A stretch of DNA of 64,000 nt from Brevibacillus brevis (lineage in GTDB: Bacteria; Bacillota; Bacilli; Brevibacillales; Brevibacillaceae). Each line of letters opens with the position of its first letter. Position 1 is the first letter of the stretch. Below are positions 31,815 through 61,585 of this stretch, piece by piece. The stretch covers positions 3,857,501 to 3,921,500 of the forward strand of contig NZ_CP134050.1 of NCBI RefSeq assembly GCF_031583145.1. Reading direction: 5' to 3'. The translations under genes were made by a program, and so were the position numbers. The notes below the pieces were generated by a model. It did not search any database. It saw nothing but the letters and a program-made list of their open reading frames with translations, and was not told the origin of the DNA.

Positions 31815-31943
31815 TCCTTCTCATCTTTCAGAGTTTGATAACTCTGCAGGAATTAGCACCATTATCTCCCTGTACCTTTCGTACAGGTGATCGGTTGCCG
31901 GGCATCATCGGGCCAGTCCCTCCGCCTCTCTGGATAAGAAGAT
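31815..31943 (-). promoter_or_regulatory. SAM-I (S-box) riboswitch
   Basis: On the reverse strand the aptamer reads CTTATCCAGAGAGGCGGAGG, then ACTGGCCC, GATGATGCCCGGCAACC, GGTGCTAATTCC and the closing GATGAGAAGG. These are the conserved S-box elements, including the kink-turn and the GGCAACC pseudoknot region. High SAM should favour the terminator at 31759-31789 and shut off metI-metC. It fills most of the 305-bp gap upstream of metI. Confidence 0.97.
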
Positions 31944-46213: not shown

Positions 46214-47185
46214 TCAGCCCTTTCGTGTCTGGTACCCTTGCAGTTTTGCCAGCGAGCTGCCGAGATCGCCGAACATCCGGTCAAACAAATCCTGGACAGT
46301 CGGCACGTCGTGGATCAGGCCAATGACTTGCCCGGCCCAGCCGAAGCCTTGCTGTTCATTCCCGTCATAAATAAAGGTGCGGTTATTTTGGCCGCTGATC
46401 AACGGTTTCAACTGCTCGTATCCAGCGCCTTCCTTTTCCATCTCCAGGATGCGATCGGATCCGGGCGTACGGACGACACGGGCCGGAGCCCCCAACGTTC
46501 GTTTGATGACGGCAGTATCGTGTTCCGTTCCTTTGAGCAGGGCTTCCTTGTAAGCCGCATGTGCATGGACACATTCTTGTGTGGCGATAAACCGGGTGCC
46601 CATCTCCACTCCATCGGCTCCTAGAGCAAGTGCGGCAAGAATCCCCCGGCCGTCGCCGATTCCTCCGCTCGCCAGCACCGGAATCGACACCGAATCCACT
46701 ACGCGGGGAATCAGGACAAACGTCCCGATATCATCGCGCCCCAGATGGCCTCCGCCTTCCTGACCGACCGCCATGACGGCGTCGGCGCCGATGGATTCAG
46801 CCTTTTGGGCCTGCCGCACCGATGCGACGAGCACGAGCTTTTTCACATCGTGGCCATCCAGCCTGCGGATGAGCGGCTCCGGATTGCCTCCCGTGACCGA
46901 AATGACTTTGACGCCTTCTTCAACGGCCACATCCACAAATGGCTCGTACGAGTGGTTGTACTGGCCGATGGCGAAGTTTACGCCAAAGGGGCGCTCTGTC
47001 ATCGTCCGGACCTTGCGGATTTCCTCGCGCAGAGCCTCAGGGGACGGCAGCGACATCGCCGTAATTTGGCCCAATCCGCCCGCATTTGACACCGCTGCCG
47101 CCAGATTTGCGTATGCTAAATAGGCCAATCCGCCTTGAATGACCGGATAGTCAATCTGAAGCAATTCGGTTACTCTCGTTTTCAT
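46214..47185 (-). CDS. Nitronate monooxygenase-family flavoenzyme
   Basis: FMN-dependent TIM-barrel enzyme of 323 residues. Segments DYPVIQGGLAYLAYANLAAA, AGGLGQITAM, AVGQEGGGHLGRDD and LASGGIGDGRGILAALALGAD are shared by nitronate monooxygenases and FabK-type enoyl-ACP reductases. The absence of fatty-acid synthesis neighbours favours nitronate monooxygenase, which oxidises alkyl nitronates such as 3-nitropropionate. The ATG at 47185 follows GGGGTGATG. Confidence 0.85.
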   Translation of the reverse strand: MKTRVTELLQIDYPVIQGGLAYLAYANLAAAVSNAGGLGQITAMSLPSPEALREEIRKVRTMTERPFGVNFAIGQYNHSYEPFVDVAVEEGVKVISVTGGNPEPLIRRLDGHDVKKLVLVASVRQAQKAESIGADAVMAVGQEGGGHLGRDDIGTFVLIPRVVDSVSIPVLASGGIGDGRGILAALALGADGVEMGTRFIATQECVHAHAAYKEALLKGTEHDTAVIKRTLGAPARVVRTPGSDRILEMEKEGAGYEQLKPLISGQNNRTFIYDGNEQQGFGWAGQVIGLIHDVPTVQDLFDRMFGDLGSSLAKLQGYQTRKG

Positions 47186-47350
47186 CTCATCACCCCGTTT
47201 TCGTAAGACTTCTGGAAAACACAAGGAAACTCCTGCTTTGGGCCAGGAATATGAATAAAAATTCGCTTGCTTTCCCCCCCTTTTTTGCTATACTCAATTT
47301 GTTTGTTTTTACCCCTACAGATTCTTGATTCGTAAAGTGAGGCGATCGTA

Positions 47351-48823: not shown

Positions 48824-48877
48824 GAAAGGGACCACATTCGGGCTGCTTTTCGGGAGAATCGCCAGGCTTTTGATTGG

Positions 48878-48913
48878 AAAGCTGTTGCTCATAGCGGGCA
48901 ACAGCTTTTTTCT
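48878..48913 (+). terminator. Terminator after speA
   Basis: Hairpin AAAGCTGTTGC / GCAACAGCTTT followed by TTTTCTTTT. Confidence 0.88.
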
Positions 48914-48985: not shown

Positions 48986-50953
48986 GTGCCAGACTGGTCC
49001 TACCATCCAATCTTTCGTCCCCTCCTCTTTCTTCTCTCCCCGGAGAGGGCGCGCGACCTTACCTTGCGGGCAATCGGTACGTTGGCAAAATGCCCAGGCG
49101 GACCCTCGCTCATTGAGCTGATGGGCCATATGAAGCCTCCCCAGGAACTATCAAGAACATGGGCCGGCATCTCGTTTTCCTCTCCGGTAGGAATAGGGGC
49201 TGGTCTGGATCCGTACGGCACCGGCCTTCAGGCGCTTAGCCGCTTTGGAGTCGGATATATCGAGTTTGGCCCGATTACCGCAGAGCCCTTTTCCTCCCAT
49301 CACGAGCTCCTACGTCAGGCAGACAGCCGATCTATCCTTTACCCTGGAGAGAAAAGCTTGGAGAATCCGGGCGTGCATGTTTACCGCGAACGATTGCGAT
49401 CAGCGCCGACGCTCGGCGTTCCTGTCGGGGCGAGGCTGGCAAGCAAACCCGGCGCAACGATTTCGGAGGCGACAGCGGAAGTGCTTTTCCTTGCAAAGCA
49501 ACTCGGCGAGAGCTGCTCCTTTTTTTCTGTGGATACACGCTGGTTTCCGGTGGAACTTACTCGCAGCCATACACAATGGCGAGCTTTTGTGCGCGAGCTG
49601 CGGAAAGTGACGGATCTGCCGCTCTTCCTCCTTCTGCCCCCTGACAGCAATAAGCCTTACGCCGCAGAGCTATTCCAGCCTGCGTGGGAGGAAGGCTTTG
49701 CGGGCGTGCTGGTAGCGGGCGGCATCCAAGTCGAGTCCCTCATTGTTGGCTGCACCGATGCGCGGCTGACCGGTCCATCCGTTTTCGCGTCAAGCCGGGC
49801 GTTCGTACAATGGCTCCGGCAGAGCTGGCCGGAATCGATCATCATTGGCTCCGGGGGCATTCACGAGCCAGCTGACGCGCTGCACATGCTTTCGGCGGGC
49901 GCCGATCTCATTTCGCTGCATAGCGGTCTCGTCTACTCAGGGCCTGGACTTCCCAAGCGGATCAACGAAGCGATCTGGCAAACTCGGTCACAGCCAGAGG
50001 CGAATCCGATCGCGTCGACCGAAACACTGCCTTCTTCCGGCAAGTCCTTCGTCCCGCCATGGGTATGGGGCATGCTCTTGGGAATCGGGATGATCGTAGG
50101 CGGCGCGTTGGCCTGGTTCATCGCCGCCACAAGCGTCGTGCTCCCCTACGACGAGAGCTTCCTCGGAATGGGGGCAGCTGAGCTGGTGCTCCTGAACAGC
50201 CGACTGCTTCCCTTTATGTCGCACGACCGCATCAGCCTCGCAGGGACGATGATTTCCATCGGTGTCATCTATTGCGGGCTGGCTCGGCATGGCCTTCGGC
50301 ACGGCCATCACGCAGCCAGGCAAATCCTTCTTGTTTCCGGAGCTGTCGGTTTTTCCAGCTTTTTTCTGTTTATTGGATACGGCTATTTTGATGCCTTGCA
50401 CGCCATCCTGGCCATCATCCTGTTTCCCGCCTTTCTCCTTGCCTTGCGTGCCCCTGCCGGCATTCATCTCCCCACTCTCCCGGTGCAGCTGTCCAATGAC
50501 ACTCAATGGAGGCGTGCCCTCTGGGGACAACTGTCGTTTGTCGTGATTGGATTCGGGCTGACCGCTGCAGGCGTGATCATTTCACTTATCGGTGTGACCG
50601 GTGTGTTCGTTCCCTCTGATCTGTTGTTTCTGTGCGCTTCACCGGAAATGCTGCAAGCCTACAATGAACGGTTGATCCCGCTCATCGCCCACGATCGGGC
50701 AGGGTTTGGCGGGGCGCTCGTCTCCGACGGTATGGCCGTCCTTCTGCTTAGCCTTTGGGGGTTCCGAAGGGGAGAGCGTTGGATCTGGCGGACTCTCTGC
50801 CTCTCCGGGCTGCCAGGCTTTGCGGCAGGCATCGGCGTTCATTTTTCCGTCGGCTACACGGACTTTCTTCACCTGTTCCCCGCATTCGTGGCCTTTGCGC
50901 TTTTTCTGCTTGGGCTGTGGCTGTCGCGGCCGCATTTGCTGGCGCGATCCTAG
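48986..50953 (+). CDS. DHODH-like TIM barrel fused to a duplicated membrane domain
   Basis: Protein of 655 residues with two parts. Residues ~1-335 follow dihydroorotate dehydrogenase class 2: SPVGIGAGLDPYGTGLQAL, FGVGYIEFGPITAEPFSS, IIGSGGIHEPADALHMLSAGAD and HSGLVYSGPGLPKRI keep the FMN-phosphate side. The catalytic segment, normally N-x-S-x-PNT, reads SVDTRWFPVE, so activity on dihydroorotate is doubtful. Residues ~350-650 have about eight membrane segments in two tandem repeats, each opening with a Pro-x-Asp block and then LLPFMSHDRISLAGTMISIG or LIPLIAHDRAGFGGALVSDG. The role is unknown; a membrane-bound flavoprotein reductase or sensor is possible. Confidence 0.75.
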   Translation: MPDWSYHPIFRPLLFLLSPERARDLTLRAIGTLAKCPGGPSLIELMGHMKPPQELSRTWAGISFSSPVGIGAGLDPYGTGLQALSRFGVGYIEFGPITAEPFSSHHELLRQADSRSILYPGEKSLENPGVHVYRERLRSAPTLGVPVGARLASKPGATISEATAEVLFLAKQLGESCSFFSVDTRWFPVELTRSHTQWRAFVRELRKVTDLPLFLLLPPDSNKPYAAELFQPAWEEGFAGVLVAGGIQVESLIVGCTDARLTGPSVFASSRAFVQWLRQSWPESIIIGSGGIHEPADALHMLSAGADLISLHSGLVYSGPGLPKRINEAIWQTRSQPEANPIASTETLPSSGKSFVPPWVWGMLLGIGMIVGGALAWFIAATSVVLPYDESFLGMGAAELVLLNSRLLPFMSHDRISLAGTMISIGVIYCGLARHGLRHGHHAARQILLVSGAVGFSSFFLFIGYGYFDALHAILAIILFPAFLLALRAPAGIHLPTLPVQLSNDTQWRRALWGQLSFVVIGFGLTAAGVIISLIGVTGVFVPSDLLFLCASPEMLQAYNERLIPLIAHDRAGFGGALVSDGMAVLLLSLWGFRRGERWIWRTLCLSGLPGFAAGIGVHFSVGYTDFLHLFPAFVAFALFLLGLWLSRPHLLARS

Positions 50954-50978: not shown

Positions 50979-51021
50979 AAACCCAGACAGCAAGTGGGGC
51001 TCACGAGCTGCCTGGGTTTTT
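50979..51021. terminator. Terminator between convergent genes
   Basis: Stem AAACCCAG..CAGC / GCTG..CTGGGTTTTT. Confidence 0.85.
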
Positions 51022-51039: not shown

Positions 51040-52971
51040 TTAGTTGTCCGTTTCTTCATCCTCATCAGAATCAGACTCGTCGTCGTCATCATCCTGTGGC
51101 CGAGCAAACGAAAGCGTATAGACGTATGGGTCTCCATCACGCGTGTCAATCCAAACGAGGCGATTCCCTCCAATGCGGGCTTCTTCTACCTCTGCTTTGC
51201 TGCTCCAGGAATAGTCGCTGTAAGAACCTTCCTCGGCATCGTACAACTCAAAGTAAAAATCTTTCTGTTTTGGCGAAAGTCGGTTGTCCTCATACAATAC
51301 CATGTTGCGGGATACTTGCGGGTTAATTTGGTCACGGTCTGCATAACGCAGCAGAGAAGTCGTCTTTTCTCGGTCGAGGTCGTAGTAGTACAAATCCCAG
51401 CTCGGCTTTTTAGAATCGGTATATTCGCTCCATACGACGAAATCTTCTCCGAGTTTGGCAGTTTTCACTTGCACGTTTTTGCGAATCTCGGTTTCGTCAT
51501 CGTCGTCGATATCGTACAGGACGATGCTTGCTTTATTGGAGCTTTGCTCAAGCACCCACGTCGCATAATTCCCGTAAATGTCTACACTGAGCGGATCTTT
51601 CCGCAGCGTGCTGACTTCCTTGCTCTTGTTTGTAGAAAGATCAGTCAGCATGATGTCAGGTCTGCTTTGCATGTTTACCCACAGAAGCATGTCACCGTCG
51701 ATCTCGTACAGTTTTTTATCCGGCTCTTGGTCGTCATCTTCGTCCGTGACTTGATTCGTGACACCTTTTTTAATGTCGTAGGAAAAGAGTGCATCCTCGG
51801 ACTCATCATACCAGACGACGTAGCGATTGCTGACAAGAGGACGAATCGGGTCTGCATCCACAGTCGTTATAGCTTTGGTTGTACCCTTTTCCACGTCATA
51901 CAGAATAACGGAGGAGTTTTTGCGATTCTCCGAAATATAGACGACATATCGGTCGCTTCCATCCGGTTGGCTCGGTTCTCCTCCTACGTCGCCAATCTGC
52001 AGCGCTTCTTTTTCATCGAGATCGTACAAATTCAGGCGGAGCTTCTTGTTGTTATCCGCCTTTGCATACAGGACGTAGTCTCCGTAAACCCGCGGAGGCA
52101 GTTTGTCGTAAATAAAGCTCGCAATGTCTTTCGTCGTCGTCTTCGACGTGGTTCCGTAGGTTGCATGACCATCGTCCACGAACAAGTAGGTATTCTTGTA
52201 AAGATGCGGAGAGGTTTTGTCACCGGAGTAGTCTGTCAGCTTCTTGATTTTGCTGTTGCCGATCGTGTACAAGGCGATTTGGCTGTAGGTGCCGCTCTGG
52301 TCTTCATATACGATCTGATTCCCGTACACGGACGGATTCACTTGGTCGCCGCGAGAAGTCACCGCTGCTTTTTCCTGACCGGCTTTCATGTCGTAGTAGT
52401 AGATGTCTGCATTGCCGGAGCGCACGTCTTGCCATGCAATGTATGTATCCCCGATAGTAGGATTGCTTGCTTTGCCGCTTGTGGAAATTTGTTCGGATTC
52501 ACCGGAAGTAATGTTGTACATGTAAACGTCCGAACCGCCGTTGCTCTGGTCGTCCCAGACAATATTCTTGCCGGATATCTCCAGGTGCGTCACCTTTGCC
52601 GATCCGCTTGTGAGGCGTGTTTCCTTTTCATCGGAAATATCGTACATGTACACATCGGATCCTCCATCACGGGAGTCGATCCAAACGACGTATTTGCCGT
52701 CAACACGTGGACTTGTCTTTGTAGACTCTTCGCTGCCGATCTTCTTTTCCGAATGGTTATCCAGATCATAAAGCGTGATGGTCTTTTCCCCTTCAACCAT
52801 CCACACAGCGTAGTCCTCAGAAATGTCGAAACCGGTCTTGGCGATTTCAGGTGAGCCCACATCTATCTTCACTTCGTCGCCGATGCCGGACGCAAATGCC
52901 GGTGTCCCGCTCCACAGGGAAGTGACCAACAGCGCTGCGGCCAACCATCCCTGCCTCGGTTTTAGCTTCAT
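51040..52971 (-). CDS. Secreted TolB-like beta-propeller protein with acidic tail
   Basis: Exported protein of 643 residues. A signal peptide (AAALLVTSLWSGTPAFA) precedes many WD/TolB-like strands with repeating YVVWIDSRDGGSDVYMYD-type units (also IVWDDQSNGGSDVYMYN, IAWQDVRSGNADIYYYD and LVWIDTRDGDPYVYTL). Together they form one or two beta-propellers that usually bind proteins or sugars. The end is DDDDDESDSDEDEETDN, a poly-acidic tail like that of the Ig-like protein at 32959. The ATG at 52971 follows AGAGGAGG. Probably wall- or surface-associated; partner unknown. Confidence 0.82.
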   Translation of the reverse strand: MKLKPRQGWLAAALLVTSLWSGTPAFASGIGDEVKIDVGSPEIAKTGFDISEDYAVWMVEGEKTITLYDLDNHSEKKIGSEESTKTSPRVDGKYVVWIDSRDGGSDVYMYDISDEKETRLTSGSAKVTHLEISGKNIVWDDQSNGGSDVYMYNITSGESEQISTSGKASNPTIGDTYIAWQDVRSGNADIYYYDMKAGQEKAAVTSRGDQVNPSVYGNQIVYEDQSGTYSQIALYTIGNSKIKKLTDYSGDKTSPHLYKNTYLFVDDGHATYGTTSKTTTKDIASFIYDKLPPRVYGDYVLYAKADNNKKLRLNLYDLDEKEALQIGDVGGEPSQPDGSDRYVVYISENRKNSSVILYDVEKGTTKAITTVDADPIRPLVSNRYVVWYDESEDALFSYDIKKGVTNQVTDEDDDQEPDKKLYEIDGDMLLWVNMQSRPDIMLTDLSTNKSKEVSTLRKDPLSVDIYGNYATWVLEQSSNKASIVLYDIDDDDETEIRKNVQVKTAKLGEDFVVWSEYTDSKKPSWDLYYYDLDREKTTSLLRYADRDQINPQVSRNMVLYEDNRLSPKQKDFYFELYDAEEGSYSDYSWSSKAEVEEARIGGNRLVWIDTRDGDPYVYTLSFARPQDDDDDESDSDEDEETDN

Positions 52972-53038
52972 GGAACAATTCCTCCTCTTGCCACAATTTT
53001 CACTCTTACCTATTATCCCCCATGTTGAAAAGGTTGTC

Positions 53039-53067
53039 AAAAAAAACAGGCCTCGCAACGCGGCCTG
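53039..53067 (-). terminator. Terminator of the SR1P gene
   Basis: Reverse-strand hairpin CAGGCC / GGCCTG followed by eight T. Confidence 0.88.
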
Positions 53068-61308: not shown

Positions 61309-61333
61309 CGATTCCCTCGCCAGCAAATCGTAA

Positions 61334-61503
61334 ATAGCGCTCCATGAGAGATTCTTCTCATGACAGGATGATCATTGTTCACGAGCACCCCAACCCTTGC
61401 CATCCAGGGGAACGGCAACAGCTTCGGCGCCTTAGCCTTTCTATCTTTTCCTGCCCCCCGGCAGACCGCGAAAAGATGTACTCTTCTGTAGCGCACCTCT
61501 ATT
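61334..61503 (-). promoter_or_regulatory. Lysine riboswitch (L-box)
   Basis: On the transcribed strand the aptamer shows AGAGGTGCGC, AAGAGTA, GAAAGGCTAAGGCGCCGAAG, GGGTTGGGGTGCTCGTGAAC, the TCATGAG/CTCATGGA hairpin and closing GGAGCGCT, the conserved order of the L-box. Lysine binding should favour the terminator at 61270-61308 and turn off the dap operon. Confidence 0.93.
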
Positions 61504-61585
61504 TAGACTTTACTATCTTAAGTTTATTTAACTCTACCAAAATCACCTACGTGTGGCAACAGCTTTGTGAAAAGAAAGTTGATAA

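Follow-up and report, generated by a model that had tools for sequence, protein, structure and literature searches.

In class-2 dihydroorotate dehydrogenase (DHODH, PyrD), the N-terminal helices form the quinone tunnel. We take the active site of this enzyme to comprise eight positions, which with the roles assigned to them are K66, N111, N139, N172, S175, N177, K217, and N246 in E. coli numbering, and of these N139 and K217 are presumably the contacts to the FMN ring. The window analyzed here, a 64,000-nucleotide stretch of the Brevibacillus brevis genome (NZ_CP134050.1, positions 3,857,501 to 3,921,500), encodes a protein in which residues ~1−340 have the class-2 DHODH fold, including its N-terminal helices, and are joined to a duplicated membrane domain. 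The features of the locus are as follows.

48986..50953, + strand: the whole gene, an open reading frame of 655 amino acids with a GTG start and AGGAG just 5′ of it
48986..49129, + strand: residues 1−48, the N-terminal helices of the class-2 DHODH fold, starting MPDWSY (alignment, model)
49130..49795, + strand: residues 49−270, the body of the TIM barrel, active site lost (alignment)
49526..49555, + strand: residues 181−190, SVDTRWFPVE, replacing the NVSSPNTP catalytic loop (alignment with canonical PyrD)
49796..49990, + strand: residues 271−335, the FMN-phosphate-binding end of the barrel with GSGGI, GAD, and LHSGLVYSGPGL (alignment)
49991..50050, + strand: residues 336−355, a variable linker (model confidence below 50 at 339−344)
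50051..50500, + strand: residues 356−505, membrane repeat 1, four helices (alignment, BLASTP, models)
50501..50950, + strand: residues 506−655, membrane repeat 2, four helices (alignment, BLASTP, models)
48876..48910, + strand: a terminator-like hairpin separating the fused gene from the decarboxylase gene upstream of it (terminator scan)
50980..51021, + strand: an inverted repeat and T run right after the stop codon, a possible terminator (read by eye)

The first half of the protein is homologous to class-2 PyrD. Pfam DHO_dh (PF01180) matches residues 55−330 with 52.5 bits against a gathering cutoff of 27, and the same model is matched by 68/68 family sequences at E up to 1. A profile search of the PDB returns class-2 DHODH at E 3e-35, with the first class-1 entry (the class being our own reading) at 5e-6. 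The full-length AlphaFold2 model, built from 68 sequences, has a pLDDT of 92.4 and a pTM of 0.91; Foldseek relates it to bacterial PyrDs at E 1.2e-17, and VIA, with the predicted model as query, superimposes 324 residues on H. pylori PyrD (6b8s) with a Z of 40.7 at 2.3 Å. The fold is thereby supported by prediction. The FMN-phosphate-binding blocks picked out in the preliminary description are all present in the window protein, GSGGI at residues 288−292, GAD at 305−307, and LHSGLVYSGPGL at 311−322, and the structure prediction and domain search that it proposed for each half returned the class-2 DHODH fold for this one and no Pfam or NCBIfam family for the membrane half.

The class-2 active site, on the other hand, has been lost. 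The window protein carries P76, E126, R150, D183, W186, P188, L216, and G245 at the eight positions (0/8 kept), and the alignment with canonical PyrD places SVDTRWFPVE where the N-x-S-x-PNT loop should stand. The loss of that loop and the doubt that this is a PyrD, both voiced earlier, are thus borne out, and no standard class-2 active site emerges on alignment. We extended the count to 81 family sequences, made up of the window protein, 78 of 80 named loci, and the homologues from Mycobacterium branderi and Cytobacillus spongiae; these are the closest relatives and an uneven sample, and L068 and L101, whose PDWSY start is out of frame, were left out. With a gap scored as a loss, 62 sequences, including the window's, keep none of the active-site residues, 18 keep one, and one keeps two. 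By comparison, 21/21 canonical class-2 PyrD controls keep all eight positions. The control set consists of the PyrD of the window's genome and 20 hand-picked stretches (18 from the search of genus genomes and 2 from the genomes of the DHO_dh check), all 20 of which gave a frame when frames were chosen by a P-N/P-H motif, a choice that favors that one loop.

In the family the catalytic loop is mostly shortened, with a gap at N177 in 67/81, and neither of the presumed ring contacts N139 and K217 is kept in any of the 81. The replacements are regular, with N139 changed to Arg in 74/81, N172 to Asp or Glu in 76/81, and K217 to Tyr in 57/81, so that the pocket may have been rebuilt. At the FMN-phosphate end, G297 is kept in 75, G268 in 69, and Ser at 319 in 71 of the 81 sequences; G296 is kept in 52, with Ala in 24 more, and Tyr318 has become His in 61. 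The window protein also misses the NCBIfam PyrD models, scoring 149.9 bits at best against a cutoff of 267 and 96.9 against 200 for TIGR01036, where the canonical class-2 PyrD of the same genome scores 491.1 and 462.2 bits on the same two models. The alignments show the barrel to be a relative of class-2 PyrD without its active site, and the fused protein is almost certainly not a PyrD.

Nor is the fused gene the only pyrD of its genome. Besides the canonical class-2 PyrD (491 bits, cutoff 267), we found a class-1B-type PyrD (377 bits, cutoff 269) and PreA (685 bits, cutoff 335). The preliminary description had suggested looking for a separate canonical pyrD in the pyr operon; such a gene exists, but it is located elsewhere in the genome, and carB and pyrF are direct neighbors, without an intervening pyrD. 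At ~6 kb from this pair is the class-1B PyrD, with the genes listed next.

L173 5977-9179, − strand: class-1B-type PyrD with PyrK-like, allantoinase-like, and allantoate-amidohydrolase-like genes (window's genome)

It is flanked by the PyrK-like gene (172 bits, under the cutoff of 314) and the allantoinase-like gene, after which comes the allantoate-amidohydrolase-like gene. We considered the class-1B PyrD as a member of the pyr operon and rejected this assignment, since the adjoining gene is allantoinase-like, not pyrC, and carB/pyrF are some distance off; its association with allantoinase- and allantoate-amidohydrolase-like genes suggests a catabolic role rather than one in UMP synthesis. 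Another DHO_dh match of at least 173 bits, well above the score of the fused protein, is present in 21/21 further genomes tested, which include the source genomes of L068 and L145, two copies with broken frames, and that of the short form described below; in G787 the other DHO_dh gene was read in three pieces.

The second half of the protein consists, as had been proposed, of two tandem repeats of ~150 residues, each with four long helices and two short ones between helices 1 and 2. The repeats align with each other by BLASTP at 33% identity over 133 columns (E 6e-17, single comparison) and by profile−profile comparison with 99.1% probability. On this evidence from sequence, the duplication in the membrane half is genuine and the repeats are homologous. 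Modeled alone, it has a pLDDT of 93.5 and a pTM of 0.92. The motifs first given for the repeats need a small correction: P-x-D is found in both (PYD and PSD) and P-x-x-x-H-D-R is shared, as LPFMSHDR in repeat 1 and IPLIAHDR in repeat 2, but the leading Leu is not, being Ile in repeat 2. Among the 81 sequences, D389 and H413-D414-R415 of repeat 1 are invariant (81/81), and D469 and H472 are kept in 80/81; in repeat 2, D545, H569-D570-R571, H619, Y624, and H629 are kept in 81/81 and D626 in 73/81. The same set recurs in both repeats, with an Asp following helix 1 and with H-D-R and D-x-x-H opening helices 2 and 4, respectively. The His residues of each repeat, for which a heme role was considered, sit at helix ends, beside acids. 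With inner and outer segments set by hand from the model, the number of Lys and Arg per sequence (n = 81) is 1.9, 3.1, 5.7, 1.4, and 1.2 in the inner segments and 1.3, 0.0, 1.5, and 0.1 in the outer; in the inner linker, acids about equal bases (1.8 vs 1.9 per sequence). This charge distribution favors a predicted topology, again a matter of the model, with the barrel in the cytosol and the D/HDR/DxxH set outside the cell.

The membrane half is uncatalogued in the families that we searched. The window's copy matches no Pfam or NCBIfam family at E up to 1, and 52 sequences run against family models gave scattered weak matches only, to 1−4 members each, with a best E of 0.005. Sequence searches of the PDB returned no credible relative (best E 0.057), the window protein and its M. 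branderi homologue, run against the PADLOC anti-phage models, matched no family at E up to 1, and a structure search in viral proteins gave 0 matches at E 0.001. The one structural match of note is chain O of 8xqw, from the Chlamydomonas Ycf2−FtsHi motor complex, which VIA aligns with a Z of 17.4 at 3.7 Å over 246 residues with 11% identity. The VIA list, which covers listed families only, contains no other entry with a Z of at least 8 (the next has 6.8), and Foldseek also ranks this chain first, at a weak E of 0.06 (prob 0.97). By VIA's own note, helical models reach Z ~14 by common arrangement, so any kinship suggested by this superposition is a lead only. Chain O is not known to be a metal protein. 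The structure papers for the Ycf2−FtsHi motor are reportedly those of Liang et al. from 2024, and passages of PMC7768757 and PMC13399175 give no identity for this chain. As for the fused architecture, which the preliminary description had called unfamiliar for a PyrD, no description of it was found in the family libraries or in literature searches at the level of titles and listings. The membrane domain deserves a family entry of its own.

The two halves have been conserved to different degrees. For the identity comparison the sequence set was reduced by leaving out 11/78 sequences (more than 85% identical). Over 68 sequences, mean pairwise identity is highest for residues 1−48 (0.65) and each of the membrane repeats (0.62), lower at the FMN-phosphate end (0.55), and lowest in the barrel body (0.36) and the linker (0.28), which makes the barrel body the most variable segment apart from the linker. 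The dN/dS ratio, summed within Brevibacillus over 38 non-independent pairs, is 0.18 for the N-terminus, 0.29 for the barrel body, 0.14 for the FMN-phosphate end, and 0.10 for the membrane half. By both measures the membrane half is the better conserved one, and these ratios indicate that purifying selection still acts on the barrel body, although less than on the other segments.

The barrel also varies in length. The part before the membrane domain has 187 residues in M. branderi compared with 284−379 in 29/30 other rows (L151 being mis-cut). Rows from Paenibacillaceae (Brevibacillus, Paenibacillus, and Cohnella) have 327−379 residues there, compared with 284−312 in a well supported seven-row group with Bacillus, Ureibacillus, Robertmurraya, and Cytobacillus; one Cytobacillus row (L077, 329 residues) clusters with Paenibacillus and Cohnella in the tree. 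In the reduced barrel of M. branderi, the PDWTYHP start, the motif of a single barrel strand, and the terminal GPG are still recognizable. A still shorter form in G075 (L029 3958-4893, − strand) is a 311-residue frame in which the first barrel half is followed by the last membrane helices, and it is either a natural deletion or an assembly fault. Separately, L068, L145, and L146 have their parts in different frames and the start of L101 was not found in frame; such frame-broken copies reflect either decay or sequencing error. In this family an enzyme of core metabolism seems to be decaying toward an accessory domain on a membrane protein, with the stages readable in living species.

The fused gene is no local oddity, and the protein is present in many soil Bacilli. 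A near-full-length match (E below 1e-200) occurs in 19/25 other genomes of the genus, with six lacking one, and the membrane-half alignment, searched against public genome contigs, matched 542 stretches encoding a relative, where two patterns were used and a gene may be counted twice. The best 80 of the 542 come from Brevibacillus, Paenibacillus, Cohnella, Cytobacillus, Ureibacillus, Robertmurraya, and Bacillus, the nearest being Brevibacillus species; 78 of these 80 named loci have the same fused frame, and in the other two the start is out of that frame. Of 398 genomes sampled evenly across the class, 34 match, the window's own included (33 without G637, which has stops inside and was counted as chance), and in a sample of the phylum 2/398 match, again with the own genome included. 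Outside Bacillota, M. branderi is the only case among the matches listed; its homologue is annotated as a “hypothetical protein” on an 864 kb record filed as a plasmid. The C. spongiae homologue, on a 690 kb record also filed as a plasmid, is annotated as “dihydroorotate dehydrogenase”, a label that in this sizable family would mislead pathway reconstruction.

The surroundings of the gene say little about its role. Its upstream neighbor is an Orn/Lys/Arg-decarboxylase gene, and the hairpin on the 5′ side together with the inverted repeat and T run after the stop codon indicate that the fused gene is probably transcribed alone; the terminator scan gave 7 such sites in the region against 3.1 expected by chance, and the downstream inverted repeat, whose loop is longer than the limit of the scan, is not in the scan's list. 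In 79 upstream stretches, no promoter or regulator pattern, searched as consensus strings, occurred in more than one stretch; the sigE and sigH patterns were seen once each, where single-base shuffles gave 0.15 and 0.3. Rfam searches beside the gene in 11 of the 80 named loci gave one match, an SR1-type sRNA directly after the homologous gene of Brevibacillus migulae (L041 6938-7149, − strand; 48.4 bits, cutoff 45), and no SR1-type sRNA reaches the gathering score in the window. The window does hold a lysine riboswitch (61327-61509, − strand, 98.8 bits) and a SAM riboswitch (31818-31940, − strand, 92.1 bits).

Among 85 loci, no neighbor family besides the gene itself is found in more than 11, and none is kept across genera; neighbors at fixed places in 8−11 loci are almost all in Brevibacillus. 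These counts are lower bounds, as the longest frames were kept and the window's own decarboxylase and β-propeller neighbors were missed. Two genes upstream in the window lies a nitronate-monooxygenase/FabK-like flavoprotein (46214-47224, − strand; NMO 5.8e-66; FabK model 297 bits, under the cutoff of 453), a family seen in 11/85 loci. Convergent with the fused gene is a large TIGR04275 β-propeller-repeat protein (51043-53058, − strand; 181.5 bits, cutoff 85), and a TIGR04275-like gene is the next neighbor in 8 other loci, the window uncounted. A membrane-protein gene immediately upstream in 9 loci was considered as TspO-like, an assignment that we dropped because Pfam gives it no family. A broad LuxR-type response-regulator family occurs in 7/85 loci at varying distance, in 4 of them three genes downstream in the same orientation, and directly behind the short form in G075, also on its strand, come genes for a histidine kinase and a LuxR-type response regulator. 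Such genes are common, so we give this proximity little weight and it may be chance.

Taken with the topology, these data lead us to regard the protein as probably a membrane protein with an outward-facing polar or metal site and a pseudo-PyrD as its cytosolic accessory domain. The working part would be the duplicated 2 × 4-helix integral membrane domain, and the D/HDR/DxxH set on its outer face a putative metal-binding site or another polar site for catalysis or transport; that such a site exists is a guess from the model, although the most economical one. The cytosolic half would be a former class-2 PyrD that kept its fold, its N-terminal helices, and mostly its FMN-phosphate site and gave up its catalytic machinery, to act perhaps as a scaffold or as a ligand-responsive regulator. 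The main competitor is a repurposed membrane flavoenzyme, close to the membrane flavoprotein with a different substrate that the preliminary description had proposed, since the mostly retained FMN-phosphate site and the regularity of the pocket replacements need explanation. FMN would here be held by its phosphate in a rebuilt pocket (R150 and D183 in the window protein, with Tyr at K217 and Asp or Glu at N246 also in many relatives), and electrons from another substrate would pass to the membrane half or to quinone, as the good conservation of the N-terminal helices would allow. The complete absence of the ring contacts from the family and the existence of one relative without most of the barrel favor a pseudoenzyme accessory domain over a new flavoenzyme; the variability of the barrel body relative to the other folded segments and the G075 frame, in which half a barrel is joined to the last membrane helices, also speak against a flavoenzyme, which we judge unlikely while keeping it in view. 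Against the accessory-domain reading, in turn, stand the dN/dS of 0.29 and the regular replacements, by which the barrel may still bind or do something specific, the balanced charges of the inner linker, the lack of a kept neighbor, RNA family, or promoter motif pointing to a function, and a single structural match of note (8xqw chain O) that is not known as a metal protein.

A sensor or receptor, also raised at the outset, would have the membrane half read an outside cue, or the barrel a cytosolic FMN or phosphate ligand, with the signal crossing the membrane. A domain of enzymatic origin, joined to a membrane domain whose outward polar residues are conserved, would suit such a role, as would the two-component genes after the G075 short form and the response regulators in a few other loci, but the fused protein has no output domain, and the regulators vary in position, are absent from most loci, and belong to a very common type, which leaves this proposal distinctly improbable. 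A more elaborate scheme, to which we would grant a similarly small chance, has a new family of membrane proteins with two outward metal sites, one in each repeat, gated from inside by the PyrD-derived barrel as a receptor for FMN or another phosphate ligand, and the same 8-helix fold recruited independently or ancestrally into the chloroplast import motor. In favor of a normal quinone-dependent PyrD that has additional membrane anchoring, one could cite the Pfam DHO_dh match and the annotation of the C. spongiae homologue; the absent active site, the shortfall against the NCBIfam cutoffs, and the presence of other PyrDs in the cell make it very nearly untenable, and we reject it. We retain the membrane protein with a pseudo-PyrD accessory domain as the preferred reading.

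Other fusions keep an inactive enzyme domain beside a membrane domain, and the protein resembles them in this respect; none of them is known to have a barrel derived from PyrD. To chain O of 8xqw, the resemblance lies in the arrangement of the 8-helix membrane half, with 11% identity and no match by sequence. With class-2 PyrD, it has in common the fold of residues 1−340, the N-terminal helices, the FMN-phosphate end, and the predicted cytosolic side, and it differs from that enzyme in that all eight tested active-site positions are changed, the protein starts with MPDWSY and misses the NCBIfam cutoffs, and an 8-helix membrane domain has been added.
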